Source of the DNA: Pseudomonadota bacterium
GTDB taxonomy: Bacteria; Pseudomonadota; Gammaproteobacteria; Steroidobacterales; Steroidobacteraceae
Assembly: GCA_003242685.1 (NCBI GenBank)
Contig: QGVD01000004.1
Span: 33,326 to 97,325 of the forward strand
Length of the DNA stretch: 64,000 nucleotides
Reading direction: 5' to 3'
Shown: piece by piece, positions 2,046 to 33,540 of the stretch
Layout: each line of letters begins with the position of its first letter
How positions within the stretch are numbered: position 1 is the first letter of the stretch
Program-made: the position numbers and the translations under genes
Notes under the pieces: generated by a model
Seen by the model: only the letters and a program-made list of their open reading frames with translations
Database searches by the model: none
Told to the model about the DNA's origin: nothing

Positions 2046-2540
2046 ATGTTCCACGTCGTACTGTTCCAGCCCGAGATCCCCCCGAACACCGGCAACATCA
2101 TCCGCCTCTGCGCGAACACCGGCTGCACGCTGCACCTGGTGAAGCCCCTCGGCTTCACGCTCGAGCGCAGAGCCGTGCGCAGGGCGGGGCTCGATTACGA
2201 CGAGCTCGCGGACGTGCGGGTACACGCGGACCTCGACGCGTGCCTCGCGGCGCTCGCCGGCTCGCGCATCCACGCGGTCGAGACGAGCGGCACGCGCCGC
2301 TACAGCGATGTGAGCTTCGCCGAAGGAGACGCGCTCGTCTTCGGCCCCGAGACGCGCGGCCTGCCCGTGCGCGTGCTCGAGCGCGTGCCGCCCGAGCGGC
2401 GGCTCTTCATCCCGATGCGTGCCGGGAATCGCAGCGTCAATCTCGCGAACGCGGTTTCGGTGGTCGTCTACGAAGCGTGGCGTCAGAACGGCTTCGCCGG
2501 CGCGGCGCAGCCCGCGGCGCTCAATCCGTCTCCGCCTTGA
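2046..2540 (+). CDS. trmL: tRNA (cytidine(34)-2'-O)-methyltransferase
   Basis: This 164-residue SPOUT methyltransferase methylates the 2'-OH of the wobble base of tRNA-Leu isoacceptors with SAM. It begins FHVVLFQPEIPPNTGNIIRL, the signature of the TrmL (YibK) family. It ends with the knotted SAM site: ALVFGPETRGLP, then IPMRAGNRSVNLANAVSVVVYEAWRQ. Length matches the family (about 155-165). The ATG at 2046 is chosen because homologues start right at this motif. Its last 20 bases overlap the end of gpsA on the other strand. In gammaproteobacteria trmL often neighbours secB/gpsA, as here. Confidence 0.93.
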   Translation: MFHVVLFQPEIPPNTGNIIRLCANTGCTLHLVKPLGFTLERRAVRRAGLDYDELADVRVHADLDACLAALAGSRIHAVETSGTRRYSDVSFAEGDALVFGPETRGLPVRVLERVPPERRLFIPMRAGNRSVNLANAVSVVVYEAWRQNGFAGAAQPAALNPSPP

Positions 2541-3540
2541 TGGGGCGCGTCATGAGGCCGCGCACGACTTCCTGCGCGGGCCGGTTCTCGTACAGCACGC
2601 CGTATATCCCTTCGCAGATCGGCATGCTGACGTTCTCGCGCTGCGCGACACTGTGCACGGCCTTCGCCGCCGCGTAGCCTTCGACAACCTGACCGATTTC
2701 GCGCAGCGCTTCCTCGGCGGACTTTCCTGCCGCGAGCAGCAGCCCGAAGCGGCGATTGCGCGACTGGTTGTCTGTGCACGTCAGGACCAGGTCGCCGAGG
2801 CCTGCGAGCCCCATGAAGGTTTCGCGCTGCGCGCCGAGAGCGACGCCGAGGCGCATCATCTCGGCGAGCCCGCGCGTGATGAGCGCCACGCGCGTGTTCG
2901 CGCCGAAACCGAGGCCGTCGGAGAGCCCCGCGCCGACTGCGAGCACGTTCTTCACCGCACCGCCGACCTCGACGCCGACGATGTCGCTGGAGGTGTAGGC
3001 GCGGAGTTGCGTTGAAGAGATCTCGCGCGCGAGCGCCGTCGCGAAGGCGGCATCGGGCGATGCCACGGTGAGCGCAGTCGGCAGCCCTGCGCCGACTTCG
3101 CGCGCGAAGGTGGGACCCGACAGGACGGCGATCGGCCGCTCGACGCCGAGTATCTCCCGCGCGACCTGATGCGGGAGCTTGCCGCTCTCCAGCTCGAATC
3201 CCTTGGTGGCCCAGGCGATGCGCGCTTCCGGCCCGATCCTGCGCGCCACCTCGCTGAGAAGTCCGCGGAACGCGTGGCTCGGCACGACGATCAGCACGTC
3301 GACCGCACCGTCGAGCGCGGCGTCGAGATCGCTCGTGACGCTGAGCGTCTCGGGAAACTGCGCCTCCGGCAGATAGCGCACGTTGCGCCGCTCGCGCGCC
3401 ATGGTCGAGACGAGCGCGGCGTCGCGGCCCCACAGGCGCGTCGGCCGGCCGGAACGTGCGAGCTGGATCGCGAGCGCGGTGCCCCACGAGCCCGCACCCA
3501 GCACGGCCCATGGCACGCCGCTGCCTGCCTCCCCCGTCAT
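2521..3540 (-). CDS. gpsA: Glycerol-3-phosphate dehydrogenase [NAD(P)+]
   Basis: This cytosolic 339-residue enzyme reduces dihydroxyacetone phosphate to sn-glycerol-3-phosphate for phospholipid synthesis. The N-terminal Rossmann fold shows AVLGAGSWGTALA. Downstream motifs are VPSHAFRGLL, the catalytic-lysine region WATKGFE, VLSGPTFAREV, GAVKNVLAVGAGLSDGLGFG and the NxxxALITRGLAEM-type segment. The start at 3540 gives MTGEAGSG followed directly by the nucleotide-binding strand; longer in-frame extension upstream would run into secB. It is the last gene of the rhodanese-grxC-secB-gpsA run, 28 bp after secB. Confidence 0.95.
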   Translation of the reverse strand: MTGEAGSGVPWAVLGAGSWGTALAIQLARSGRPTRLWGRDAALVSTMARERRNVRYLPEAQFPETLSVTSDLDAALDGAVDVLIVVPSHAFRGLLSEVARRIGPEARIAWATKGFELESGKLPHQVAREILGVERPIAVLSGPTFAREVGAGLPTALTVASPDAAFATALAREISSTQLRAYTSSDIVGVEVGGAVKNVLAVGAGLSDGLGFGANTRVALITRGLAEMMRLGVALGAQRETFMGLAGLGDLVLTCTDNQSRNRRFGLLLAAGKSAEEALREIGQVVEGYAAAKAVHSVAQRENVSMPICEGIYGVLYENRPAQEVVRGLMTRPIKAETD

Positions 3541-3568
3541 GCTTCGGCCCGCGCCGCGGCCGCGAGCT

Positions 3569-4069
3569 TCAGTTCGCGGCCTGCGCCTTCTGCGCCTGTG
3601 CCTGTGCCTCGGCCAGCGAGCGCGCGTAGAGCGCTTCGAAGTTGACCGGAGGCAGGAGGAACTGCGGGAAGCCGCCCTGCGTGACGAGGTGCGACACGGA
3701 AGCACGCGCGTACGGGAACAGCACGCTCGGGCAGATGCTGCCCACCGCGCGCTTGACGTCTTCCTCGCTGAGATTCCGCATGATGAACACGCCCGCCTGC
3801 TTCACCTCGACGAGAAACAGCGTCGTGTTGTTCTGCTTGGCGGACACCGTCACCGTCAGAACGACCTCGCGCACGTCGGGCGCGAGCGTGCTGACGCTCG
3901 TGTGCAGATCCAGGTTGATCTGCGGGTTCCACGCACCTTCCACGCGCGGGCCGTTGGGAGCCTCATAGGAGCAGTCCTTCAGATAGACGCCCTGGAGGGC
4001 GAGCTGAGGACCGTCCTGCGCCTGCGTCTCGGGCGCCGGCGCGGCGCCGGCAGAATCGTTCGTCGTCAT
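3569..4069 (-). CDS. secB: Protein-export chaperone SecB
   Basis: SecB is a homotetrameric cytosolic chaperone that keeps preproteins unfolded and hands them to SecA. The 166-residue sequence has the family core: LQGVYLKDCSYEAPNGP, EVVLTVTVSAK, LFLVEVKQAGVF, the CPSVLFPYARASVSHLVTQGGFPQFLLPPVNF block and an Ala/Gln-rich C-terminal tail. The N-terminal 20 residues are a low-complexity Ala/Pro/Gln stretch, as is common. It sits between grxC and gpsA on the same strand, the conserved gammaproteobacterial arrangement. Confidence 0.97.
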   Translation of the reverse strand: MTTNDSAGAAPAPETQAQDGPQLALQGVYLKDCSYEAPNGPRVEGAWNPQINLDLHTSVSTLAPDVREVVLTVTVSAKQNNTTLFLVEVKQAGVFIMRNLSEEDVKRAVGSICPSVLFPYARASVSHLVTQGGFPQFLLPPVNFEALYARSLAEAQAQAQKAQAAN

Positions 4070-20957: not shown

Positions 20958-22040
20958 TCAGAAGAACCCGTGCAGCTCGATGAAGTACTGCTCGCGGTTC
21001 TGCAGCGCGTTCTGCGGAATGCCGTCGTAGACGCGCGCGCCGACCCGTAGCTGCAGGAACTCCACCGGCGTGAGCTCGTAGACGAGACTCGTTCGCGTCT
21101 GCTCGTCCTCGTCGACGTCGTCGTCGGGGTCGAACCACTCGAAGGTCAGCTTCACGTTGTGGCCGCGGCGCGGCATCCAGTTCGCCTCGCCGAGCGCGGC
21201 GATCAGCTGCCGGCCCGTGGGACCGAGCCCGTCGTCGTCGATGTAATCCACTTCGCCGAGCCACGCGATCGGTCCGGTGCGTATGCCCGCATGCAGCGCG
21301 AGCGCGTATCGATCGCCGGCATCCGTATCGTTGAAGCTCGCACTCAGTCCCGCCCGCCACGTGGGCCGCACGTGCGCGGCACGCAGCGTGAGCTGTTTGC
21401 CGTTGTCGAGCTCGGGTCCGCCCGCCGTGCCGTTGCTCACCGCGAGCTGCGCGCTCCAGGCGCCGTACTCGAGGCCCACCTCCACCGCGTCATCCGCCGT
21501 GGTCATGTTGATCCCCGAGACCTGACGCACGAAGGCGTTGTCGTCTTCGAGCCGCCAGCCGAAGGGCAGATACATCTTGCCGGCCTTCACGTACCACGTG
21601 CCTTCACGCAGCCACAGCCGCACGTTGGCTTCGCGATTGTCCGCGTCGCCCGGTGCGAGCTGCTCGTCGACGTACACCGACAGGCGGCCCGGGATCACGG
21701 ACGCTTCGACGAAGATCCGGCCCTCGGCGACGTCGAAGGCGCTTCTCTCGTCCTGATCGGGCACGTCCACGTGATCGAAGTTCGCGCGCAGATTCCCGCC
21801 AATGGCGACGTAACGGCCGAGCATTCCGCTCCAGGGTTCCTCTTCCACGCGCAGCCGCCGAGCCGGCAGCCCCGTCTGCGCGTACGCATTGCCGAAAGGC
21901 GTGCGCAGCCCGCCACCAGTGACGTTCGCATGACACTGAACGCACTTGAGGCCGGTGCGCACCGCGAAGTAGGGCTCCGCATGCGCGCCGGCAGCGAAGA
22001 AGAGGAGCGCCGCGAGAGCGAGACACGATCGAACGTTCAT
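20958..22040 (-). CDS. Outer-membrane barrel-like protein with N-terminal CxxCH motif
   Basis: The 360-residue protein has a signal peptide (LALAALLFFAAGAHAEPYF, cleavage near residue 22). Straight after comes LKCVQCHANVTGGG, a c-type haem attachment motif, then FGNAYAQTG. The remaining 290 residues alternate short strands typical of a phosphate-selective-porin-like barrel (SAQLAVSNGTAGGPELDN, GLSASFNDTDAGDRYALALH, NVKLTFEWFDPDDDVDEDE) and end with the aromatic strand YFIELHGFF. I do not know a characterised homologue. It overlaps the upstream CxxCH lipoprotein gene by four bases, so the two are coupled and may form an electron-transfer or sensing pair at the outer membrane. Confidence 0.75.
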   Translation of the reverse strand: MNVRSCLALAALLFFAAGAHAEPYFAVRTGLKCVQCHANVTGGGLRTPFGNAYAQTGLPARRLRVEEEPWSGMLGRYVAIGGNLRANFDHVDVPDQDERSAFDVAEGRIFVEASVIPGRLSVYVDEQLAPGDADNREANVRLWLREGTWYVKAGKMYLPFGWRLEDDNAFVRQVSGINMTTADDAVEVGLEYGAWSAQLAVSNGTAGGPELDNGKQLTLRAAHVRPTWRAGLSASFNDTDAGDRYALALHAGIRTGPIAWLGEVDYIDDDGLGPTGRQLIAALGEANWMPRRGHNVKLTFEWFDPDDDVDEDEQTRTSLVYELTPVEFLQLRVGARVYDGIPQNALQNREQYFIELHGFF

Positions 22041-22945
22041 GGCGTGCCCTCCGTCACCGTGAACGTCGCGTGGAAGTCTCCGCCCGGGGTGCCGTCATCG
22101 TCGCCATCGAGCACACGGCCGTCGACGTCGGCGAGCGCGACGGCTCCGCTGCCGGAAATCGTGATCCTGTAAGTTTCCGCCGCGAGCGCGCCGCGCGGCG
22201 TGAGCGTCACGACGGTGGGATTGACGAGCGAGACCTCGACGCTCGCGAGCGGCACCTGGATTTCGTTGCCTTCCGCGAACGAACCGTCACCGCCGCTCGC
22301 GTGCAGCTGGAAGGTATCCGCGCTCGCGAGCGCGGCGTCGACGGGATGACTGAAGACGATCGTGAGCGTGCTCGGGGTCGGACACTCTTCGCCCTCCGCA
22401 GGAACCGTCGAGACGACACGCGGTGGTTGAAGCTGCTCTGCGAGGCCGGCAGTGGCCGGCGGCGCGCCCTGTGCGATCCACTGCCGTACGAGATCGATGC
22501 TCGATTGCGGCAGCGGCGGACCACCGAGCGGCATGCGCGCGCCGACTGCCGCGCGTCCTTCGATCTTCTGCACCAGATAACTCGCATCGGGGTCGCCGGG
22601 CGTCACTCGCTGCAGTGCCGGGACCTGGACGCTCGGTACGTTCACGAGCATCGCGTAACTATTGGCTTCGTCGAGGCGCAGACCGAGCGGTGCCGCCGCA
22701 CCCGCATGGCAGTTGGTGCAGACCGGCGTGAAGATCGTGTCCTGTATCTGGCGGAACTCGCCGGTCGCGGGCGGCGGACCTCCCGGCGGACCGCCGTTCG
22801 ATCCTCCGTCGGAGCCTCCTTCTCCGATCGGACGTCCGTTCGCGTCCAGTCCTTCACCGCTTCCCGCACAGCCCGCGATCGCGAGCAGGGCGGCGGGAAC
22901 GAGCATGGGCTGAATGCGCTTCGAGCCCGCGAGCCTCAACCGCAT
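22037..22945 (-). CDS. Lipoprotein with cytochrome-like module and Ig-like domain
   Basis: The 302-residue protein has a lipobox (LVPAALLAIAGC, lipid on Cys26) followed by a Gly/Pro linker. Next is a cytochrome-like module: FTPVCTNCHAGAAAPLGLRL, SYAMLVNVPSVQVP, RVTPGDPDASYLVQKIEG, ARMPLGGPPLPQSSIDLVRQ WI. The C-terminal half is a bacterial Ig-like (SbsA/Big_5) domain (STVPAEGEECPTPSTLTIVF, TVVTLTPRGALAAETYRITI). The same module is present at the C-terminus of the divergent CHRD lipoprotein. Start at 22945 follows GAGGTGACC. Probably surface-exposed or periplasmic haem binding; function unknown. Confidence 0.78.
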   Translation of the reverse strand: MRLRLAGSKRIQPMLVPAALLAIAGCAGSGEGLDANGRPIGEGGSDGGSNGGPPGGPPPATGEFRQIQDTIFTPVCTNCHAGAAAPLGLRLDEANSYAMLVNVPSVQVPALQRVTPGDPDASYLVQKIEGRAAVGARMPLGGPPLPQSSIDLVRQWIAQGAPPATAGLAEQLQPPRVVSTVPAEGEECPTPSTLTIVFSHPVDAALASADTFQLHASGGDGSFAEGNEIQVPLASVEVSLVNPTVVTLTPRGALAAETYRITISGSGAVALADVDGRVLDGDDDGTPGGDFHATFTVTEGTP

Positions 22946-23125
22946 CGGTCACCTCGTCGAGTCTGCCGACACGTCCGGTGAGTCCGCGCGCCGCAGCTCG
23001 CGGTTCGATGCGATCGCGTGCCGGTCACCAGATGCGTCCGTTTCGAGCCACGCGTGAACCGCACGACGGCGAGAGCGGTACACACGCCCCGCCGAAGCAC
23101 GTATCGACCGAACCAGGGGTGGACA

Positions 23126-25990
23126 ATGAAGAATCCGCGCCTTCGCCCGCTCATGCTCGTGCGCTTCGCCGCCGTGGTGCTCTTCGCAGCAGGTCTCGCT
23201 GCATGCAACGGCGACGACGACGATGAAACGCCGCCTCAGACCGGCCCGGACACCAGCCCGCCGACGGTGAGCCTCTCGGCGCCCGCCACCGCGAGCCGCA
23301 CCGTTACCCTCACGGCAACGGTGAGCGACAACGTCGGCGTGACGCAGGTGGAGTTCCGCGTCGACGGCACGGCGATCGCGACCGTTTCGGCGGCGCCGTT
23401 CACGACTTCATGGGACACGAGCACGGTCGCGGACGGTCCGCATACGCTCACGGCAATTGCACGTGATGCGGCAGGCAACTCGGCGACCTCAGCGGACGTC
23501 CAGGTCAATGTCCGCAATCAGCTCAGCTTCGCCGTGACACTGAGCGGCGCCGAGGAGAATCCGCCGACCGGTTCCGCGGGCTCCGCGACCGGAACGATCG
23601 ACGTCAATGCGATCACCGGCGAGACGAGCGGTTCCATCACGGTCTCCGGCTTCACACCGACCGCGGCTCACATTCACGACGGCTTCGCGGGACAGAACGG
23701 ACCGATCGTGATCGGTCTCGAGCAGGATCCCGGGGATCCCGCCGTGTGGAACGTGCCGCAGGGCGCGGTGCTCACCGCGGAGCAGCTCGACCGGCTGCTC
23801 TCCGGTGCGCTGTACGTGAACGTGCACTCCGATGCGTTCCCGGGCGGCGAGGTGCGCGCGCAGCTCCTGCCCGAGAACGTCCGCGTGTTCTTCACGGATC
23901 TCACGTCGCGTGAGGAGCCGGCGCTCATCGATGCGCCGGGATCGGGAAGAGCGGCGCTCACCGTGAACACCGACACGCGTGCAGTCGTCGCGCACCTGAC
24001 GTTCAGCGGTGTCGACGACGCGACCGACGCGCACATTCACCAGGGATTCGCCGGAGCGAACGGCCCGGTGATCGTCGGTCTCACGCGCGATTCGGCGGAT
24101 CCGTCCCACTTCTTCGTCACCGACGCATCGCTTTCACAGGCGGCGTACGACGCGCTGCTCGCAGGCGGGCTGTACTTCAACCTCCACAGCACCACACATC
24201 CCGACGGCCACCTGCGCGGGCAGATCGTGCCGGAAGGCGTGAGAGTGATCGTCACCGACCTCGAAGGCGTGCAGGAGGTGCCCGCGGTCGCGAGCAACGC
24301 CCGCGGACGGGCGGGCGTGACGTTCGTCGAGAGCACGCGCACCGTGCACATCCATCTCAACGCGCAGGGCGTGGACGATGCGAACGCCGCGCATCTGCAC
24401 ACCGGCGTCGCAGGTGTGAGCGGACCGGTCACCGTCGGTCTCACGCAGGACGGCAGCGCACCGGGCCACTGGTTCGTCGAGAACGCAGTGCTCTCCGAGA
24501 CAGACGCCGCGGCGCTGCTCTCGGCACGCACCTACGTGAATCTCCACACGCCGGCGAATCCTTCCGGCGAGATCCGCGGACAGGTCGTGCCCGACGGACA
24601 CATCGTGTTGGTCGCTCCGATGGACGGCAGCCAGGAAGTGCCTGAGCCGCGCACGACGGATGCCAGCGGCACCGTGGCGCTGACCGTGGATACCGCGAGC
24701 GGTGCGACGGAGGTCCACATCAATGCGACGGGAGTCGACGACGCGGTGGCGGCCCACGTGCACGACGGGTTCGCCGGCGTGAACGGTCCCGTGATCATCG
24801 GCCTCACGAAGGACTCCGATCCGGCCCGACCCGGCCACTGGTTCATCACCGACGCGACGCTCACCGCCGAGCAGCTCGAAACGCTGCTCGCCGGCGGGCT
24901 GTACGCGAACGTCCATACACCGGCGGCACCCGACGGGCTCATCCGCGGTCAGCTGCTGCCGCCGAACGTCCGGCTGACGTTCACCGACCTCACGGGTGGT
25001 GAGGAGGTGCCGCCGGTGAGCACCTCGGCCACCGCGCGCGCCGCGACGACTGTCGATCTCACGTCGGGCGAGGTCACGGTGCACGTCAACATGGTGGGTC
25101 TGGAGACCGCGAACGCGGCACACGTCCACGACGCGCCGGCGGGGGAGAACGGGCCGGTCATCATCGGACTGACGCAGGATCCCGCGACGCCCTCTCTGTG
25201 GTCGGTCGTGCGCGCGGCCGCGACGCCGGAGCAGATCCAGGGCTATCTCGCGAACCGCTGGTACGTGAACGTGCATACGCCGGCGAATCCGGACGGCGAG
25301 GTGCGCGGCCAGATCATCGCGAGCCCCGAGCCGCCGCCCGATGCTCAGGCGCCGACCGTGACGCTCGATGCCGTCCCCGCGACGATTTCCGGCGTCGTCA
25401 CGCTGAGCGCGACCGCAGCGGACGATACGGGCGTGGTCGTGGTGCGCTTCAAGGTGAACGACGCCATCGTCGGGACTGACAGCACCGCGCCGTACTCCGT
25501 CGACTGGGATTCGGCGGGAGTCGCCAACGGGCAGGTGACGATCGTGGCGGAAGCGGAGGATGCCGCCGGCAATGTCGGTGTGTCGGCACCCGCAACCGCG
25601 ACGGTGTCCAACTCCACTGGCGTGACGCCCTTCCTCTTCAGCGAGCTCCAGTCGCAGGTGTTCAGCATGAGCTGCGCGCTCGCCGGCTGCCATGCCGGGT
25701 CGAGCCCGCAGGCGGGCCTCGATCTCAGCGCGGGTCAGAGCTACGCGAATCTCGTCAACGTGCCGAGCACCGAGGTCGGTACCCTGCTGCGCGTGAAGGC
25801 GGGCGACGCCGCGAACAGCTACCTGATCCGCAAGCTCGAAGGAGGCCCTGACATCGTCGGCGCGCGCATGCCTTTCGGTGGTCCGCCGCTCTCCCAGGAC
25901 GTGATCAACCGGATCCGCGCCTGGATCGACGCCGGCGCGCCGAACGACACGGCGCCCGTCGGGCCGCCGCCGATTCCGCCCGGGTACTGA
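23126..25990 (+). CDS. Large lipoprotein with five CHRD domains, two Ig-like domains and a cytochrome-like module
   Basis: The 954-residue protein starts MKNPRLRPLMLVRFAAVVLF with a lipobox GLAAC (Cys about 26). Order: Ig-like domain (about 40-130), five tandem CHRD (chordin-type) domains of about 120 residues each (about 131-735), a second Ig-like domain (about 740-830), and a C-terminal cytochrome-like module (CALAGCHAGSSPQAGLDL, SYANLVNVPSTEVG, ARMPFGGPPLSQDVINRI). Each CHRD repeat carries the AHxHxGxAGxNGPVxxGL and YxNxHT..PxGExRGQ patterns. The haem-like motif is CX4CH rather than CXXCH. ATG 23126 is chosen for the signal peptide and upstream GGGGTGG. Transcribed divergently from the two CxxCH genes. 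Function unknown. Confidence 0.85.
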   Translation: MKNPRLRPLMLVRFAAVVLFAAGLAACNGDDDDETPPQTGPDTSPPTVSLSAPATASRTVTLTATVSDNVGVTQVEFRVDGTAIATVSAAPFTTSWDTSTVADGPHTLTAIARDAAGNSATSADVQVNVRNQLSFAVTLSGAEENPPTGSAGSATGTIDVNAITGETSGSITVSGFTPTAAHIHDGFAGQNGPIVIGLEQDPGDPAVWNVPQGAVLTAEQLDRLLSGALYVNVHSDAFPGGEVRAQLLPENVRVFFTDLTSREEPALIDAPGSGRAALTVNTDTRAVVAHLTFSGVDDATDAHIHQGFAGANGPVIVGLTRDSADPSHFFVTDASLSQAAYDALLAGGLYFNLHSTTHPDGHLRGQIVPEGVRVIVTDLEGVQEVPAVASNARGRAGVTFVESTRTVHIHLNAQGVDDANAAHLHTGVAGVSGPVTVGLTQDGSAPGHWFVENAVLSETDAAALLSARTYVNLHTPANPSGEIRGQVVPDGHIVLVAPMDGSQEVPEPRTTDASGTVALTVDTASGATEVHINATGVDDAVAAHVHDGFAGVNGPVIIGLTKDSDPARPGHWFITDATLTAEQLETLLAGGLYANVHTPAAPDGLIRGQLLPPNVRLTFTDLTGGEEVPPVSTSATARAATTVDLTSGEVTVHVNMVGLETANAAHVHDAPAGENGPVIIGLTQDPATPSLWSVVRAAATPEQIQGYLANRWYVNVHTPANPDGEVRGQIIASPEPPPDAQAPTVTLDAVPATISGVVTLSATAADDTGVVVVRFKVNDAIVGTDSTAPYSVDWDSAGVANGQVTIVAEAEDAAGNVGVSAPATATVSNSTGVTPFLFSELQSQVFSMSCALAGCHAGSSPQAGLDLSAGQSYANLVNVPSTEVGTLLRVKAGDAANSYLIRKLEGGPDIVGARMPFGGPPLSQDVINRIRAWIDAGAPNDTAPVGPPPIPPGY

Positions 25991-26019: not shown

Positions 26020-26256
26020 TCATCTCTTCTTCGGGCGACGCCCCGGCCGCGAGGGGATCTCTCCCTCCGCCGGGGTCCACGGCTCCCCGGTCCGCTCTTC
26101 GATGTAGCGCCGGATCAGCCGGCGCACGACCTGCGACGGCGTCGCATCCTCTTCCGCACACAGGCGCTCGAATACCGCCTTCTTGCGCGGATCGATCAGA
26201 ATGGTCAGTCGGGCGGTACGATTCTCGAGAGCCAATGCCTTCACTTTTCTGCGCAC
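26020..26256 (-). CDS. Ribbon-helix-helix (CopG-like) DNA-binding protein
   Basis: The 78-residue protein has a central ribbon-helix-helix: RTARLTILIDPRKKAVFERL, EEDATPSQVVRRLIRRYIEE. A basic, Pro/Arg-rich tail follows (RPGRRPKKR). The beta-strand TARLTILID would dock in the major groove of a dimeric operator. The start is GTG at 26256; a second GTG four codons later is possible. A 19-bp palindromic AT-rich element lies seven bases upstream of the start codon and is a good candidate for autoregulation. No toxin gene is adjacent, so it is probably a plain regulator. It is divergent from the hyf-like operon. Confidence 0.82.
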   Translation of the reverse strand: MRRKVKALALENRTARLTILIDPRKKAVFERLCAEEDATPSQVVRRLIRRYIEERTGEPWTPAEGEIPSRPGRRPKKR

Positions 26257-26368: not shown

Positions 26369-28366
26369 GTGATCCTCACACCTCTCACGCTCTGTCTGCT
26401 GCTGCTCGCGCTGTGGGCCGTGATCGGAGTTGCGGGTCTGGCACGACCGACGAGCCTGCGCTACGTCGCGCGCACGCTCTATCCGCTCGGTGCGCTCTGC
26501 GGTATCGCGCTCGCGGCCGTCGCTGCGGTGAGCATCACCTGGGCACCCGAACGGCTCGTTCTGCCTTTCGGTCTGCCCGATCTGCCCTTCCACGTGCGGA
26601 GCGACGCGCTCTCGAGCGCATTCCTGTTCCTGCTCGGGGCCGCGGCTGCCGGCATCTCGTTCTTCGGCGCGGGCTACTTCCGCAGCGGTGAAGGCACGGC
26701 ACCAGGGCTGTTGTGCCTGCAGTACCACCTGTTCCTCGCGAGCATGGGCTTCGTGCTCCTCGCCGACGATGCCTACGGTTTCATGGTCGCGTGGGAGTCG
26801 ATGGCCCTGACCTCCTATTTCCTGGTCACCACGCAGCACCGTATTCCGGAGATCCGCCGCGCGGGCTTTCTCTACCTGCTGATCGCGCACCTCGGCGCGA
26901 TCGCCATTCTTCTCAGCTTCGGCGTCATGCAGGGTGGAAGCTGGCAGTTCACGTTCGATGCCATGCGCGCCGCGCAGCTTCCGTCCGGCTGGGCGGCAGT
27001 TGCCTTCCTGCTCGCGATCTTCGGTTTCGGTGCAAAGGCGGGTCTCGTGCCGCTGCACGTGTGGCTGCCGGAGGCGCATCCCGCGGCTCCGTCGCCGGTT
27101 TCCGCCCTCATGAGCGGCGTGATGCTCAAGACCGCCGTCTACGGCGTGCTGCGCGTCACCTTCGATCTGCTTGGTGAACCCGCGAGCTGGTGGGGCCTCG
27201 TCCCGCTCGGCATCGGGCTTCTCACCGCGATGTACGGCGTCGTGTTCGCGGCCGTGCAGACGGACATGAAGCGTCTGCTCGCGTACTCGTCCATCGAGAA
27301 CATCGGCATCCTGTTCACCGGCATCGGGCTCGCGGTCGTGTTCCATGGCGCCGGCATGGCGGTGCTGGCGGCGCTCGCGCTGATCGCCGTGCTCTATCAC
27401 GCGCTCAACCACGCCTTCATGAAGAGCCTGCTGTTTCTCGGCACGGGCGCGGTGCTGCACGCGACCGGTGAGCGCAATCTCGGCCGTCTCGGCGGGCTGA
27501 TCCGCCGCATGCCGTGGGTCGCGTGGCTCACGCTGGTGGGCGCGCTCGCAATATCGGGCCTGCCGCCGCTCAACGGCTTCGTTTCCGAATGGCTGCTGCT
27601 GCAGGCGTTCCTGTTCGCCCACCGGGTGCCGCAGACCTTCGTCAACATGCTGCTGCCTCTCGGCGCCGCGGTGGTCGTGCTCGCCGCCGCACTCGCGGCC
27701 TACGTCATGGTGAAGTTCTATGGCGTGGTCTTCCTCGGTCAGCCGCGCGAGGCCGCGCTCGCCCGCGCGCACGATCCGGGCGCGCTCGAGAAGCTCGGTC
27801 TCGTGTGGCTCGCGCTCGGCTGTGTGCTGCTGGGGCTTCTTCCCGCGCCGGTCGTCGGTCTGCTGGGCAGCGTGACCGCACAGCTCGGTGTGGGCTCACT
27901 CCCGCAGGGCGCTTCACCATGGTGGGTGCTCGAGCCGCTGCCCGACCGCGACGCTACGTACGCGCCGCTCGTGTTCCTCGCCGCGATCGTGCTCGTGGTG
28001 GTTCTCACCTTCCAGCTCGTCGGCCGCATGTTCCACCGTCGCGTGCGTCGCGGCGCGCCGTGGGACTGCGGATTCGTGCGCCTCGACGCGCGCATGCAGG
28101 ACACGGCCGAGGGCTTCGGCCAGCCGATACGGCGCATCTTCCAGTCCTTCTTCGCCATAGAGCGTGAGCAGCCGACACCGTTCGACCGCGCGCCGCGCTA
28201 CAGCATCGTCGTGACCGACCGGCTCTGGCGCGCGCTCTACCTGCCGCTCGCGGGACTCGTGCAGCGGGCGGCCGACGCCGTCGCGTGGCTGCAGCAGGGA
28301 CGCATCGCCGCGTATCTGCTCTACAGCTTCGTCACGCTCGTGACCCTGCTCGCACTGGTGCTGTGA
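26369..28366 (+). CDS. hyfB: Hydrogenase-4 component B-like antiporter subunit
   Basis: The 665-residue membrane protein belongs to the Mrp/NuoL-N antiporter family, HyfB type. Key segments are AWESMALTSYFLVTTQHR (TM5 region), the discontinuous helix GFGAKAGLVPLHVWLPEAHP with its lysine, VSALMSGVMLKTAVYG, LAYSSIENIGI, HALNHAFMKSLLFLGTGAV and GLPPLNGFVSEWLL. It would move protons or sodium, driven by the attached hydrophilic module. The start is GTG at 26369. First gene of a six-gene run (B, C, E, F, G, I). The next start follows the stop almost immediately. Complex I is less likely because the gene set is HyfB/C/E/F-like. Confidence 0.92.
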   Translation: MILTPLTLCLLLLALWAVIGVAGLARPTSLRYVARTLYPLGALCGIALAAVAAVSITWAPERLVLPFGLPDLPFHVRSDALSSAFLFLLGAAAAGISFFGAGYFRSGEGTAPGLLCLQYHLFLASMGFVLLADDAYGFMVAWESMALTSYFLVTTQHRIPEIRRAGFLYLLIAHLGAIAILLSFGVMQGGSWQFTFDAMRAAQLPSGWAAVAFLLAIFGFGAKAGLVPLHVWLPEAHPAAPSPVSALMSGVMLKTAVYGVLRVTFDLLGEPASWWGLVPLGIGLLTAMYGVVFAAVQTDMKRLLAYSSIENIGILFTGIGLAVVFHGAGMAVLAALALIAVLYHALNHAFMKSLLFLGTGAVLHATGERNLGRLGGLIRRMPWVAWLTLVGALAISGLPPLNGFVSEWLLLQAFLFAHRVPQTFVNMLLPLGAAVVVLAAALAAYVMVKFYGVVFLGQPREAALARAHDPGALEKLGLVWLALGCVLLGLLPAPVVGLLGSVTAQLGVGSLPQGASPWWVLEPLPDRDATYAPLVFLAAIVLVVVLTFQLVGRMFHRRVRRGAPWDCGFVRLDARMQDTAEGFGQPIRRIFQSFFAIEREQPTPFDRAPRYSIVVTDRLWRALYLPLAGLVQRAADAVAWLQQGRIAAYLLYSFVTLVTLLALVL

Positions 28367-28368
28367 CG

Positions 28369-29310
28369 ATGGCCTGGCTCACGCAGATCCTCGAAGTCCT
28401 CGCCGCACTCGTCGCCGCGCCACTGTTCCTCGGCTGGGTGAACAAGTGCCGCGCATGGCTCCAGAACCGCAGCGCGCCGAGCCTGCTGCAGCCGTACCGC
28501 GGCATCCGCAAGCTCTTCTTCAAGGACGCCGTCATCGCCGAGAACGCCTCGCCGCTGTTCCGGCTCGCACCCTACGTCGTGTTCGGCGCGATGGTGCTCG
28601 CCGCGGCGATCATTCCTTCGATGGGCACGCGGCTGCCGTTCTCGTCCGCGGCCGACGCGATCGCCCTCGTGGGGCTCCTAGCCACCGCGCGCGTATTCCA
28701 GTCGCTCGCGGCGATGGACGTCGGGACGGCATTCGGCAGTCTCGGCGCGCGCCGCGAGATGATGATCGGCTTCCTCGCCGAGCCGGCGCTGCTGATGGTG
28801 ATCTTCGTCGCCTCGCTCATCTCGGCGACCACCGCGCTGCCCGTGATCTCCGAGCGCCTCGCCGTGCAGTCGGTAGGCCTCTATCCGAGCCTCGCGTTCA
28901 CGGCGGTGGCATTCACGATGGTGCTGCTCGCGGAGAATGCCCGCATTCCCGTCGACAACCCGGCCACTCACCTCGAGCTCACCATGATCCACGAGGCGAT
29001 GCTGCTCGAGTACTCGGCGCGTCATCTCGCGCTCATGGAGTGGGCGGCCGCTCTCAAGCTCTTCAACTACGCCTGCATCGGCTTCGCGCTGTTCGTGCCC
29101 TGGGGCGTGTCGACTACCGCGACGGGACCCGCCGGCCTGCTCTTCGCCATTCCGCTGCTCGCCGCCAAGCTCGCCGTAGCGGGCGTCGGGCTCGCGCTGA
29201 TCGAGACGCTCTCGGCGAAGCTGCGCGTGTTCCGCGCGCCTGAGTTCCTGGCCACCGCCTTCCTGCTCGCCGTGCTGGGTCTCCTGGTGCGGCTGCTGCT
29301 CGGATCCTGA
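28369..29310 (+). CDS. hyfC: Hydrogenase-4 component C-like (NuoH-type) membrane subunit
   Basis: The 313-residue protein matches HyfC/HycD, the NuoH-like subunit that couples the membrane arm to the hydrophilic core. Visible motifs are GWVNKCRAWLQNRSAPSLLQPY, IRKLFFKDAVIAENASPLFR, a glutamate-rich loop AENARIPVDNPATHLELTMI, and HEAMLLEYSARHLALMEW. The start may be ATG at 28369 or GTG at 28363, which would overlap the previous stop. Four bases separate it from the next gene. Confidence 0.92.
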   Translation: MAWLTQILEVLAALVAAPLFLGWVNKCRAWLQNRSAPSLLQPYRGIRKLFFKDAVIAENASPLFRLAPYVVFGAMVLAAAIIPSMGTRLPFSSAADAIALVGLLATARVFQSLAAMDVGTAFGSLGARREMMIGFLAEPALLMVIFVASLISATTALPVISERLAVQSVGLYPSLAFTAVAFTMVLLAENARIPVDNPATHLELTMIHEAMLLEYSARHLALMEWAAALKLFNYACIGFALFVPWGVSTTATGPAGLLFAIPLLAAKLAVAGVGLALIETLSAKLRVFRAPEFLATAFLLAVLGLLVRLLLGS

Positions 29311-29314
29311 AGCG

Positions 29315-29983
29315 ATGAACCCGATGCCCTTCGACGTGCAGCTCCTCAACGCGCTCTCGGCGCTGCTCCTGCTGCTCGCCTTCGCCATGCTCTCGCAGCG
29401 GCGGATCGTCACCCTGGTGAGCCTGCTCGCGGTGCAGGGCGTGCTGCTGCTCGCCGCGACGCTCCTTCTCGCCTGGCGCACGGGCGAGACCCATCTCTAT
29501 TTCTCCGCCGCTCTCACCCTGGGGCTCAAGGTGATCTTCCTGCCGTGGGTGCTGTACCGGCTCATCCGCCGGCTCGGCGTCTACTGGGACAGTGAGCCGC
29601 TCATCAACATTCCGGGCACGATGCTCATCGGGCTCCTGATCGTCGTGTTCGCTTTCGGCCTCGCGCAGCCGATCTCGGAGCTCGCGAGCACCGCGACGCG
29701 CAGCGCGATCGGCATCGCCGTCGCCGTGATCCTGCTCTCCTTCCTCATGATGATCACGCGCCGCAAGGCGATGTCGCAGGTCGTGGGGTTCCTCTCCATG
29801 GAGAACGGACTGTTCTTCGGCGCGATGAGCGCCACCTACGGCATGCCGATGATCGTGGAGCTCGGCGTCGCGCTCGACGTGCTCGTGGCGATGCTCGTGC
29901 TCGGTGTGTTCTTTTTCCAGATCCGCGAGCAGTTCGACAGCCTCGATCTGCACCACCTCGAGTCGCTCAAGGAGAAGCGCTGA
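29315..29983 (+). CDS. hyfE: Hydrogenase-4 component E-like membrane subunit
   Basis: The 222-residue protein has six or seven hydrophobic helices. It shows the HyfE pattern: an N-terminal NuoK-like part (LLAFAMLSQRRIVTLVSLLAVQG, HLYFSAALTLGLKVIFLPWV) and a second part (MSQVVGFLSMENGLFFGAMS, GMPMIVELGVALDVLVAMLV). The conserved glutamates in SMENG and VELG fit ion translocation. Its stop is one base from the next GTG start. Confidence 0.9.
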   Translation: MNPMPFDVQLLNALSALLLLLAFAMLSQRRIVTLVSLLAVQGVLLLAATLLLAWRTGETHLYFSAALTLGLKVIFLPWVLYRLIRRLGVYWDSEPLINIPGTMLIGLLIVVFAFGLAQPISELASTATRSAIGIAVAVILLSFLMMITRRKAMSQVVGFLSMENGLFFGAMSATYGMPMIVELGVALDVLVAMLVLGVFFFQIREQFDSLDLHHLESLKEKR

Positions 29984-29984
29984 C

Positions 29985-31442
29985 GTGGAATTCCTGCTGC
30001 TGCTCGGAACGCCGCTCGTCGGGGCTGCCGCGCTCGCGGTCTGGGGCGCGCGCCCGCGCGCTCCCGAGCTCAACGTGGTCTTCAGCCTCGCCACCTTCCT
30101 CGCCGCCTGCGCGCTCACGGTGCGCGTGATCGGGGAGGGCGAGCTGATCGTCGCCCGCGAGCAGTTCTTCATCGACGCGTTCAACGTGTTCCTGGTGGCG
30201 CTCACCGCGTTCGTGGGCTTCACGACCTCGCTCTTCTCGCGGCCGTACATGCGGGTGGAGATGGAGCACGGGCGGGTCACGCCGCGGCGCCTCCGCCTCT
30301 ACCACAGCATGTATCAGCTCTTCATGGCGACGATGCTGATCGCGCTGACCACCAACAATCTCGGCCTGCTGTGGGTCGCGATGGAGGCGGCGACGCTCTC
30401 GACGGTGCTGCTCGTCACCCTGTACCGCACGCCCGCGAGCCTCGAGGCCGGCTGGAAGTACTTCATTCTGTGCGGCGTCGGCATCGCGCAGGCGCTGTTC
30501 GGAACGATCCTGCTCTACTTCGCGGCCGAATCCGTGCTCGGCGTCGAAGGCGTGAACGCGCTGCTCTGGACGCACCTCGACAGCGTGAAGGGCGACCTCG
30601 AGCCCACCGTGCTCAGCCTCGCGTTCGTGTTCCTGCTCGTCGGCTACGGCACCAAGGTCGGGCTCGCACCGCTCCACAACTGGCTGCCGGATGCGCATGC
30701 GGAAGGTCCCACGCCCATCTCGGCGGTGCTCTCCGGACTGCTCCTCAACGTCGCGGTCTACGCGGTGGTCCGCTGCAAGGTGCTCGCGGAAGGTGCGCTG
30801 CGCTCGGATCTGCCGTCGCAGATGCTCATGGGCTTCGGCCTGCTGTCCGTCATGCTCGCGGCGCTCTTCCTGTGGCGCCAGCGCGATATCAAGCGGCTGT
30901 TCGCCTACTCGTCCATCGAGCACATGGGCATCATCACCTTCGCCTTCGGCATGGGCGGCCCGGTCGCGAACTTTGCAGCGCTGCTGCACATGACGGTCCA
31001 CTCGCTCACCAAGTCCGCCATCTTCTTCGCCGTGGGTCACGCGGCGCAGAAGGCGGGCTCGCAGCTCATGGAGAACATCCGCGGCCTCGTGACGCTGAGC
31101 CCGACGGTCGGCTGGGGTCTGATGCTCGGCTCGATCGCGATCCTCGGCATCCCGCCGTTCGGCGTGTTCGCGAGCGAGTTCCTGATCCTCACCACGGCGA
31201 TGAAGGAACAGCCGTGGGCGACGCCGATCCTGCTCTTCGCGCTCGGCATCGCGTTCGCGGCGATCTTCGGACGCGTGCAGCCAATGGTCTTCGGCGAGCC
31301 GACGGCGAAGCGTCTGCCGCATCCGCCGGCGCTGATTCCGGTCTTCACGCACCTCGCGATCGTCCTCGTGCTCGGCGTCTTCATTCCGCCTTATCTCGCG
31401 GACTGGTACCGCACGGCGGCGCAGCTCATCGGAGGGCCGTGA
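29985..31442 (+). CDS. hyfF: Hydrogenase-4 component F-like antiporter subunit
   Basis: The 485-residue protein is a second Mrp/NuoN-like antiporter subunit of the HyfF type. Motifs include WVAMEAATLSTVLLVTLYR, AGWKYFILCGVGIAQALFG, GTKVGLAPLHNWLPDAHAEG, TPISAVLSGLLLNVAVYA, FAYSSIEHMGI, HMTVHSLTKSAIFFAVGHA and GIPPFGVFASEFLIL. The conserved Glu in ME-AATLS and lysines in TKVGL and TKSAIF are present, so an ion channel is intact. The start is GTG at 29985. One base separates its stop from the next GTG. Confidence 0.92.
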   Translation: MEFLLLLGTPLVGAAALAVWGARPRAPELNVVFSLATFLAACALTVRVIGEGELIVAREQFFIDAFNVFLVALTAFVGFTTSLFSRPYMRVEMEHGRVTPRRLRLYHSMYQLFMATMLIALTTNNLGLLWVAMEAATLSTVLLVTLYRTPASLEAGWKYFILCGVGIAQALFGTILLYFAAESVLGVEGVNALLWTHLDSVKGDLEPTVLSLAFVFLLVGYGTKVGLAPLHNWLPDAHAEGPTPISAVLSGLLLNVAVYAVVRCKVLAEGALRSDLPSQMLMGFGLLSVMLAALFLWRQRDIKRLFAYSSIEHMGIITFAFGMGGPVANFAALLHMTVHSLTKSAIFFAVGHAAQKAGSQLMENIRGLVTLSPTVGWGLMLGSIAILGIPPFGVFASEFLILTTAMKEQPWATPILLFALGIAFAAIFGRVQPMVFGEPTAKRLPHPPALIPVFTHLAIVLVLGVFIPPYLADWYRTAAQLIGGP

Positions 31443-31443
31443 C

Positions 31444-32979
31444 GTGGCGATGCGGCGCCTGTTCGAGACTGCGGTGAAGCTGCCGGGCGCGCCCGGCCTG
31501 CGCCGTCTCACCGTCACCGAGGAACAGTGGCTCGAAGCCGCGCGCGACCTCGCCGCGGCAGGTGCGCGGCTGCTCGCACTGTGGGCGAGCGGCCAGTCGC
31601 ACGGATCGCAGAGCGTGTACGCGGCGTTCGCCACCGAGCCCGGCGTGCTGGTCCTCATGCTCGCGCGCGAGCAGGACGGGCTCCCGTATCCGGGGCTCGA
31701 AGAGATGTTCCCGGCCGCGAGCCGCATGCAGCGGGCGATCGCGGATCTCTCGGGACTGCGCTCGACCGATCCGGACACGCGCCGCTGGCTGCGCCACGCG
31801 GCCTGGCCCGAGGACTTTCATCCGCTCGTCGACGAGCATGTGCCGCCCGCGCCGCAGTCGCCGGCCGTCGACGACTATCCCTTCGTCCGCGTCGAAGGCG
31901 AAGGCGTGCACGAGATTCCCGTGGGGCCCGTGCATGCGGGCATCATCGAGCCCGGTCACTTCCGTTTCTCGGTCGTGGGCGAGAAGGTGCTGAAGCTCGA
32001 GGAGCGGCTGGGCTACGTGCACAAGGGCATCGAGCGCCGCTTCACCGAGCTGCCGATCCTCGAAGGTCACCGTCTCGCCGCCCGCGTTTCGGGGGATTCA
32101 GCGGTTGCGTTCTCGTGGGCGTACTGCCAGGCGCTCGAAGGGCTGTCGGGTGCAGAGATTCCGCCGCGTGCGGCATGGCTGCGCGCGCTCGCGCTCGAGC
32201 TCGAACGCATCGCGAATCATCTGGGGGATCTCGGCGCGCTCGGTAACGATGCCGGCTTCGCTTTCGGTCTCGCGCAGTTCTCGCGCCTCAAGGAGCAGGT
32301 ACTGCGCGCGACGGAACGCGCGCTGGGTCAGCGATATCTCCTCGATGTCGTCGTGCCGGGCGGCGTGCGCGCGGACATCGATGCTGCGGCCGCCGACGCG
32401 CTGCGCGCATGCGTCGCGCAGGTCGCCTCGGAGGTCCGCGAGCTGCGCGACATCTACGACGAGCACGCCGGCGTCCGCGATCGTTTCACGGGTGCGGGCG
32501 TGCTCACGCCGAGTCTCGCGATGCGCCTCGGTGTCGTGGGTCTCGCGGGCCGCGCGAGCGGACAGGCGTTCGATCTGCGCGTGGATCTGCCGTGCCCGCC
32601 TTACGACGAGATCCGGCCGGCGAAAGTCTGCCGCAGCGAAGGCGACGTCGCGGCGCGCGTCGCCGTGCGCTTCGATGAGGTGATGGAATCCTGCCGGCTC
32701 GTCGCGCGGCTGCTCGCGCGCCTGCCCGAGGGCGAGTACCGTACGGTTGTGCCCGCGCCGCCTGCCGGAGTCGCGGTCGGGCTCATCGAAAGCTGGCGCG
32801 GACCCGTGCTCGTGGGCCTGGAAGCGGGGCCCGGGGGCACGATCCGGCGCTGCCATCCGCACGATCCTTCGTGGCAGAACTGGCCCGCGCTCGAGCACGC
32901 GATCATGGACAACATCGTTCCCGACTTCCCGCTCATCAACAAGTCGTTCAATCTCTCCTACAGCGGGCACGATCTCTAG
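31444..32979 (+). CDS. hyfG: HyfG/HycE-like large subunit lacking all [NiFe] ligands
   Basis: The 511-residue protein fuses an N-terminal NuoC-like part (about 1-160, with YPGLEEMFPAA) to a NuoD/hydrogenase-large-subunit part (HEIPVGPVHAGIIEPGHFRF, EKVLKLEERLGYVHKGIE). In hydrogenases the motif RVCGIC binds nickel; here it is RVSGDS with Ser216 and Ser219 in place of cysteines. The C-terminal DPCxxC site reads NLSYSG at 503-508. All four metal ligands are gone, so it cannot be a hydrogenase. It fits the large subunit of an energy-converting-hydrogenase-related (Ehr) complex, whose reaction is unknown. GTG start at 31444. Confidence 0.92.
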   Translation: MAMRRLFETAVKLPGAPGLRRLTVTEEQWLEAARDLAAAGARLLALWASGQSHGSQSVYAAFATEPGVLVLMLAREQDGLPYPGLEEMFPAASRMQRAIADLSGLRSTDPDTRRWLRHAAWPEDFHPLVDEHVPPAPQSPAVDDYPFVRVEGEGVHEIPVGPVHAGIIEPGHFRFSVVGEKVLKLEERLGYVHKGIERRFTELPILEGHRLAARVSGDSAVAFSWAYCQALEGLSGAEIPPRAAWLRALALELERIANHLGDLGALGNDAGFAFGLAQFSRLKEQVLRATERALGQRYLLDVVVPGGVRADIDAAAADALRACVAQVASEVRELRDIYDEHAGVRDRFTGAGVLTPSLAMRLGVVGLAGRASGQAFDLRVDLPCPPYDEIRPAKVCRSEGDVAARVAVRFDEVMESCRLVARLLARLPEGEYRTVVPAPPAGVAVGLIESWRGPVLVGLEAGPGGTIRRCHPHDPSWQNWPALEHAIMDNIVPDFPLINKSFNLSYSGHDL

Positions 32980-32982
32980 GCC

Positions 32983-33540
32983 ATGCTCAGGACGCTGAGG
33001 AAAATCGCCGGCATCGGCATCGTCACGGAGCCCGCGCCGCAGAGCGACGAGTCGCTGCGCGTGCGCGATGCGCTCCAGGCGCGCATCCGCGAGGTGATGG
33101 GCCGTGCGCTCACCATCCGGCACGTGGACGCGGGCTCGTGCAACGGCTGTGAGCTCGAGATCCACGCGCTCAACAATCCCATCTACAACATCGAGGGGCT
33201 CGGCATCCGCTTCGTCGCGAGCCCGCGGCATGCCGATCTGCTGCTCGTCACGGGGCCGGTGTCGAAGAACATGGAAGTCGCCCTTCGACGGGTCTACGAC
33301 GCGACGCCGGATCCCAAGCTCGTCGTGGCGGTGGGCGAGTGCGGCTGCACCGGCGGAATCTTCGGTGAGAGCTACGCGAGCCGCGGCGCGGTTTCGAACG
33401 TCATTCCGGTGGACGTAGCCATACCCGGCTGTCCGCCGAGCCCGAACCGCATCCTCGCCGGCATCCTCACGGCGATCACACAGCCGAAGCGCGCCGCGGC
33501 TCACGTGTCCACCGAAGCCGCGGCGCGGCCCGCGGACTGA
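32983..33540 (+). CDS. hyfI: NuoB/HyfI-like 4Fe-4S small subunit
   Basis: The 185-residue protein is of the NuoB/HycG type. The four ligands of the proximal 4Fe-4S cluster are all present: Cys53 and Cys56 (GSCNGCELE), Cys120 (GECGCTGG) and Cys150 (IPGCPPSP). It should therefore still carry the cluster that passes electrons to the active-site region of the large subunit, even though that region has no Ni-Fe site. The C-terminal 25 residues are a disordered Ala-rich tail. Last gene of the operon; no ferredoxin-like HyfH/NuoI or HyfA gene follows. Confidence 0.93.
   Translation: MLRTLRKIAGIGIVTEPAPQSDESLRVRDALQARIREVMGRALTIRHVDAGSCNGCELEIHALNNPIYNIEGLGIRFVASPRHADLLLVTGPVSKNMEVALRRVYDATPDPKLVVAVGECGCTGGIFGESYASRGAVSNVIPVDVAIPGCPPSPNRILAGILTAITQPKRAAAHVSTEAAARPAD

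Follow-up and report, generated by a model that had tools for sequence, protein, structure and literature searches.

A six-gene Ehr-type complex without a NiFe site, and the carbon genes beside some of its proteobacterial relatives

Energy-converting-hydrogenase-related (Ehr) complexes are known from several groups of bacteria and archaea, and the available portions of four papers describe them as complexes of unknown function (PMC10284858, PMC4378227, PMC10432482, PMC7894505), two of these, from 2023, saying so of their role (PMC10284858, PMC10432482). As they are described there, the examples from comammox Nitrospira, Sulfobacillus and Geobacter (GSU0739-45) have a large subunit without the NiFe site and partners of the NuoH, NuoL, HyfE and HyfB types. 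The MBS complex of Pyrococcus furiosus is, according to the part of the source consulted, a NiFe-less relative with known chemistry (PMC7684303), and DAB (DabA/DabB) and the cyanobacterial NDH-1MS tie a complex-I-type ion channel to CO2 hydration, again by the accessible part of the text (PMC13144422). Here we analyse a stretch of 64,000 nucleotides (nt) from a member of the Steroidobacteraceae (assembly GCA_003242685.1, contig QGVD01000004.1, positions 33,326 to 97,325; hereafter the window) and in it a six-gene operon, hyfB-C-E-F-G-I, which very probably encodes an ion-translocating member of the Ehr type. The Ehr kind is already known and the operon is an ordinary member of its family; what is new is the neighbourhood of carbon genes in which some of its relatives stand.

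The six genes are complete, lie on the plus strand at 26369-33540 and are separated by gaps of 2, 4, 1, 1 and 3 nt in that order (Table 1), just as tightly as the sequence-only reading had claimed. HyfB and HyfF each exceed the curated cut-off of their best NCBIfam model, and HyfE stays below it. The large subunit is homologous to those of group 4 hydrogenases and to NuoD and has no NiFe CxxC pairs, the small subunit carries ligands for a [4Fe-4S] cluster, and the membrane subunits are of the NuoH and antiporter types, which is the composition of an Ehr complex. The complex is a relative of group 4 hydrogenases and complex I that has lost the NiFe site and strictly conserves one [4Fe-4S] site and two antiporter-type channels. 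The likeness to the published Ehr complexes is drawn from their descriptions; the proteobacterial set differs from them in having six genes in a fixed order and in adjoining carbon genes at some loci. In a comparison with hydrogenase-4 (Hyf) and formate hydrogenlyase (Hyc) of Escherichia coli, the same six subunit types appear as in Hyf and in the same relative order, but the window operon has no HyfA, D, H, J or R. It lacks the four NiFe cysteines of a group 4 [NiFe] hydrogenase, and its genome lacks HypD.

In the window HyfG, Ser216, Asp218 and Ser219 stand where hydrogenases have their first cysteine pair, and the second site reads NLSYSG; in the alignment, HyfG and HycE of E. coli read RVCGIC and DPCYSC where the window protein has RVSGDS and NLSYSG, so that the loss of both pairs, already noticed from the letters alone, stands. 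In 115 of 129 HyfG rows all four NiFe cysteines are missing, and the other 14 rows have a single one. Asp218 is invariant (129/129), and Asn499, Lys500, Asn503 and Tyr506 are kept in all rows except one gapped row in each clade. A structure predicted from 60 sequences (mean predicted local distance difference test score, pLDDT, 86; residues 145-191 poor) is closest in the PDB to HycE, with a template-modelling (TM) score of 0.90 on the query, and then to E. coli NuoCD. The HyfG tree separates the NiFe-less proteins from E. coli formate hydrogenlyase and Hyf, Mbh and complex I (support 99/95); it holds 61 rows and is rooted at the midpoint, and several rows are long and unsure, which limits deeper claims. 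The NiFe-less set comprises a near clade with the window protein, a far clade, an alphaproteobacterial group and other NiFe-less paralogues. The window HyfG groups apart from hydrogenase-4 and complex I alike. In the data searched it fell in no clade of known substrate, and the absent ferredoxin subunit did not turn up elsewhere in a known role. A CHPHD motif at residues 470-474 was considered as a zinc carbonic-anhydrase site; it is a near-clade HxHD motif, and we dropped it as a family feature because His is present at 471 in 7/34 and at 473 in 3/34 far-clade rows.

The small subunit of the window has Cys53, Cys56, Cys120 and Cys150, as stated before from the sequence, and an extra Cys122. 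All four ligands are found in 89/89 near-clade HyfI rows, with single exceptions among 28 far-clade rows. It could be imagined that the complex is a sulfane-sulfur reductase like MBS of P. furiosus, catalysis taking place at a proximal cluster with open coordination, since MBS shares the NiFe-less large subunit and the antiporter subunits and its chemistry is known, as far as the consulted text goes (PMC7684303). MBS is however marked by a shortened cluster motif with three-Cys coordination, whereas the window HyfI has a four-Cys motif of hydrogenase length, aligns to MbhJ without a gap at the motif and keeps all four ligands, and the operon has no ferredoxin subunit of the MbsN type; we regard this explanation as very improbable.

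Both antiporter subunits retain their channel residues, in agreement with the sequence-only reading. In HyfB, Glu143, Lys223, Lys301, His348, Lys352 and Glu407 are each found in 107/107 rows and Lys254 in 98/107, and in HyfF, Glu134, Lys224, Lys303, His339, Lys343 and Glu398 are kept in 118 to 120 of 120 rows. With complex I the window complex has in common subunits of the NuoB, CD, H, L and N types and the ion channels; it differs by the absence of NuoEFGI from the operon and by the loss of the quinone His and Tyr. These are His38 and Tyr87 in the numbering of Nqo4. The window HyfG has Ile at both columns; across the family, 45/45 rows have Ile at the His38 column and none of the 45 has Tyr at the Tyr87 column. 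A NuoD fragment from the window itself shows Tyr at the Tyr87 column and is gapped at His38.

When the contigs of GTDB species were scanned, at least 555 stretches matched. The description of the locus as an Ehr-type complex holds, but not the singularity that came with it, in view of these matches and of the Ehr complexes already in print. Besides the window's own genome, 7 of 58 near genomes have clear orthologues (HyfG identity 59-75%), and in a class-wide sample HyfG was found in 44/369 genomes at E 1e-80. Two further orders, searched to enlarge the sample around presumed Burkholderiales and holding 36 and 4 genomes, gave HyfG at E 1e-100 in 3 and 4 and were of no help to the analysis. The 132 loci compared are the window, 87 discovery loci (the 7 relatives and the best-scoring 80 of the at least 555 matches, not a random choice) and 44 class-sample loci from 43 genomes; 98 belong to the near clade and 34 to the far clade. 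After a length filter the alignments held 86 HyfG and 82 HyfI rows in a first set and 129 and 117 in a later one. The flanks were often shorter than 10 kb (1.35 Mb in total), and both were at least 4 kb in 68/132 loci.

The six genes stand in fixed order in 109/132 loci, and this conservation goes far beyond chance. Of the other 23, 18 are cut by the end of the stretch and five (L124, L176, L184, L186 and L192) are without one or more of the genes inside the stretch, by the queries used. L176 and L184 are rearranged loci of one family (f47): in the former HyfG stands alone, no other subunit having been found beside it, and in the latter a SulP gene is immediately followed by F and G, while B, C and E are missing upstream. 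A decaying hydrogenase remnant without function would fit the loss of the active-site cysteines, but hardly a six-gene operon kept in so many loci; we disfavour decay because cluster, channel and cavity residues are conserved across the family, and the invariant cluster, the two channels and the rebuilt cavity point to purifying selection. That explanation is barely credible.

A HyfH/NuoI-type gene lies within 10 kb in only 3/132 loci (L066, L071 and L098), all of which also hold pieces of a second such complex, and a HyfA-type gene in 1/132 (L109). Relatives of HyfJ or HycI were not found within 10 kb, flanks often being short, of any of the 132 loci at E 1e-4. A second complex of the same type was seen beside or near the six-gene one in L205 (1-3317 and 6729-13913), L041, L066, L071, L089 and L098, and on a Variovorax plasmid the second set holds a protein annotated as 4Fe-4S binding. 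HypD is needed for the NiFe cofactor. The window genome (G000, 96.56% complete) has no match to it, it is missing from 30/51 carrier genomes, and among carriers with a completeness of 90% or more and a contamination of 5% or less it is present in 18/44. The anatomy, the HyfG tree and the missing HypD together support the original view of a NiFe-less, ion-translocating Ehr complex without a ferredoxin subunit. Among the loci compared, the gene neighbourhood offers no conserved candidate for the electron donor.

Neither formate dehydrogenase nor NuoEFG was seen in the Pfam-scanned part of the window proteins or in the gene list, which agrees with the earlier statement that these and a NuoI/HyfH ferredoxin are missing nearby. 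This bears on the idea of a formate-linked Ehr, whose partner would be a formate dehydrogenase encoded elsewhere. Such a link was put forward for Riflemargulisbacteria and Saganbacteria, in the text available of PMC6349859, and Ehr subunits of Geobacter were most abundant in formate compared with hydrogen-containing conditions, by the accessible part of PMC7894505. No such enzyme is encoded in the scanned part of the window, the 132 loci and the genome not having been searched for one, and we consider a formate-linked role quite improbable here.

The carbon genes appear at some of the relatives. A SulP transporter gene lies within 10 kb of 11/87 discovery loci where 0.41 are expected, or 1.2 if the base rate is tripled (P 9e-13, and 8e-8 at the threefold rate, with kin loci treated as independent); the base rates come from 75 SulP match pieces in 160.9 Mb and a RuBisCO count of 41 entered by hand. 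Ten of the 11 SulP genes are upstream on the same strand, five of these no more than 98 nt away as measured between alignment ends, and a looser clustering of neighbours gives a SulP-type protein at 14 loci. A CcmM-like gamma-carbonic anhydrase is found near 4/87 discovery loci, in L110 only 8 nt before hyfB; what we take to be its three His ligands were read from the motif by eye. CsoSCA-like proteins of 351-376 amino acids (aa), which weakly resemble the carbonic anhydrase of the carboxysome shell, directly follow hyfI in two loci in all, one of the near clade (L093, 12310-13365) and one of the far clade (L170, 7735-8865, minus strand).

RuBisCO is near 3/87 discovery loci (L090, L099 and L113; expected 0.22, or 0.67 at the threefold rate; P 0.0016, or 0.031) and near 1/44 class-sample loci (P 0.11). 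In the class sample, three of the five RuBisCO-bearing carriers whose genomes are a single contig (G366, G413 and G139) have RuBisCO within 25 kb of the operon (P 1e-4, or 0.003 with one of two kin genomes dropped, the distances being entered by hand). RuBisCO is 6 kb away from the operon in G366 and about 6 kb away in G413; in G139 and G191 about 24 kb separate the two, and in G182 and G193 they are far apart. In G413 (locus L190) a transporter of the SLAC1/TDT family, at 2432-3781, stands between a CbbO-like/LysR pair and the operon.

The arrangements vary. L099, from a metagenome-assembled genome of Thiobacillus denitrificans, reads SulP, gamma-carbonic anhydrase, a ribbon-helix-helix (RHH) gene, BCEFGI, a spermidine-synthase-like gene, a second RHH gene, CbbO, CbbQ, CbbS, CbbL and LysR; L090 reads SulP, BCEFGI, CbbO, gamma-carbonic anhydrase, CbbQ, CbbS and CbbL; L110 reads SulP, gamma-carbonic anhydrase and BCEFGI; and L113, from Thiomonas, reads BCEFGI, CbbM, CbbQ, CbbO and LysR. 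The Pfam check covered part of these four orders, including the RuBisCO of L099 and L113; the names CbbO and CbbX are our own assignment, Pfam showing a VWA and an AAA domain there. The carbon-linked loci fall on separate branches of the HyfG tree, namely L090, L093, L099 and L110 with L116 and L119; L113; and L167 with L170. The window genome itself has genes for the large and small subunits of form I RuBisCO, followed by an AAA gene that we read as CbbX, together with a LysR-like open reading frame and one beta-carbonic anhydrase; SulP and DabA (PF10070) gave no match in it.

We propose a carbon-supply role because SulP, carbonic anhydrase and RuBisCO genes adjoin the operon in some autotrophic relatives: the complex may, tentatively, be an ion pump that serves inorganic-carbon supply in autotrophic lineages and by extension in the RuBisCO-bearing host of the window. 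Electrons from a soluble carrier, not encoded in the operon, would reach the HyfI cluster, chemistry would take place in the remodelled HyfG cavity (Asp218, Asn499, Lys500, Asn503, Tyr506), and the change in the cavity would be relayed by way of HyfC and HyfE to movement of H+ or Na+ in HyfF and HyfB. This movement could then power bicarbonate uptake, for example by a neighbouring SulP, or drive a one-way hydration of CO2 like that of DAB and NDH-1MS. Supply by redox-driven pumping is by itself rather unlikely, and hydration driven by the proton-motive force somewhat more doubtful still.

The linkage to RuBisCO would also fit reverse electron transport, in which the complex would spend the proton-motive force on reducing a low-potential carrier required by autotrophs to fix CO2. 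Cluster ligands and channels are intact, and there are names of lithoautotrophs among the carriers (Thiobacillus, Gallionella, Ramlibacter lithotrophicus), but the quinone residues of complex I are lost, heterotrophic carriers exist, and the SulP and carbonic-anhydrase neighbours would be left unexplained, for which reasons we find it unlikely.

Several observations count against the carbon-supply role. In the class sample SulP is near 1/44 loci (P 0.19), namely L184, where F and G are the only subunit genes seen next to it; SulP proteins also transport sulfate, and the BicA model scored far below its cut-off. The NCBIfam score for CsoSCA is far below the cut-off for both L093 and L170, the Pfam cut-off being passed by L093 and no Pfam match given by L170. 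The classes of neighbours and the 25 kb limit were chosen after the data had been seen, and kin loci are not independent. No carbon gene is among the scanned neighbours of the window operon, and the RuBisCO of the window genome is on another contig. Co-occurrence at the genome level is flat and shows no enrichment, both for RuBisCO (25/44 carriers, two of them weak matches, against 187/369 genomes) and for DabA (11/44 against 82/369). The near-clade HxHD motif is absent from most far-clade HyfG rows. The likeness to DAB and NDH-1MS is one of proposed job only, the window genome lacking DabA and the operon a carbonic-anhydrase-like subunit. Annotated plasmid carriers in Variovorax, Rhizobium and Burkholderia adjoin RHH/CopG or helix-turn-helix (HTH), spermidine-synthase-like, YoaK and universal-stress genes instead.

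These plasmids of heterotrophs suggest another explanation, that the complex is an ion pump, driven by redox chemistry or driving it, which serves the cell under stress or low oxygen and has nothing to do with carbon, the carbon linkage being a local trait of some lineages. On present evidence this is as likely as the carbon-supply role. It agrees with the missing genome-level link to RuBisCO and with the spermidine-synthase-like genes near 18/132 loci (17/98 near-clade, 1/34 far-clade) and the RHH genes within 10 kb of 37/132 (36/98 and 1/34; within 1 kb in 30/132). A universal stress gene is however near just 3/132 loci, by one query, and a stress pump leaves unexplained why SulP, two carbonic-anhydrase-like families and RuBisCO occur in varied orders on separate branches.

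The carbon-gene neighbourhood makes the question of Ehr function directly testable, by asking whether the operon supports growth in air or accumulation of bicarbonate. If carbon supply is indeed the task, NiFe-less Ehr might join DAB and NDH-1MS as another class of inorganic-carbon machines derived from complex I, with the rebuilt cavity (Asp218, Lys500, Asn503, Tyr506) coupling CO2/bicarbonate chemistry or uptake to ion flow, although we hold this to be a rather long shot. A widespread family would then gain a function, many genes annotated as 'hydrogenase 4' or 'NADH-quinone oxidoreductase' would be misnamed, and lithoautotrophs would have a carbon-uptake system that is not named in the available text of a 2024 review of the toolkit (PMC10880623). 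In that text 'hydrogenase', 'NDH' and 'complex I' occur 0 times and 'formate hydrogenlyase' 3 times; it mentions that in organisms with the Wood-Ljungdahl pathway carbonic anhydrase genes recur beside those for formate hydrogenlyase or formate dehydrogenase, an arrangement it calls hard to understand (PMC10880623). No statement linking Ehr or Hyf to carbon uptake was found in the accessible parts of the literature searched.

Table 1. Features of the operon and its divergent neighbour, in window coordinates
Feature	Position	Strand	Basis
hyfB-like antiporter subunit (NuoL/MrpA type), 665 aa	26369..28366	+	NF005086 (hydrogenase 4 subunit B) 856 bits, cut-off 667; channel residues
hyfC/hycD-like membrane subunit (NuoH type), 313 aa	28369..29310	+	PF00146 E 5.6e-30; conserved charged residues
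hyfE-like membrane subunit, 222 aa	29315..29983	+	NF008556 E 1.6e-26, 93.5 bits, under cut-off 136
hyfF-like antiporter subunit, 485 aa	29985..31442	+	NF005045 862 bits, cut-off 543; channel residues
hyfG-like large subunit (NuoC/NuoD type), 511 aa, without NiFe ligands	31444..32979	+	PF00346 and PF00329; best solved relative 7z0s_E (HycE)
HyfG residues 214-219, RVSGDS in place of RxCGxC	32083..32100	+	sequence, alignment
HyfG residues 503-508, NLSYSG in place of DPCxxC	32950..32967	+	sequence, alignment
hyfI-like small subunit (NuoB type), 185 aa, cluster ligands Cys53/56/120/150	32983..33540	+	PF01058 E 1.5e-32; 6cfw_J E 4.8e-40
divergent ribbon-helix-helix (RHH_9) gene, 74-78 aa (start codon uncertain)	26023..26256	-	Pfam PF19839 E 6.8e-24

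The neighbours of the window operon are the divergent RHH_9 gene, a CHRD-domain protein, CxxCH proteins, a CDGSH protein, a DUF938 methyltransferase, an esterase, an M2 peptidase and a POT transporter. The RHH_9 gene is likely the regulator of the operon; near far-clade loci an XRE-type gene is found in 10/34. CDGSH and CHRD genes were considered as partners of the operon and dropped, since the queries matched near none of the other loci in the set of 132 and among RHH, CHRD and CDGSH only RHH recurs. Just upstream of the operon, at 20958-25990 of the window, there are two CxxCH proteins and a protein of 990 aa with five CHRD domains.

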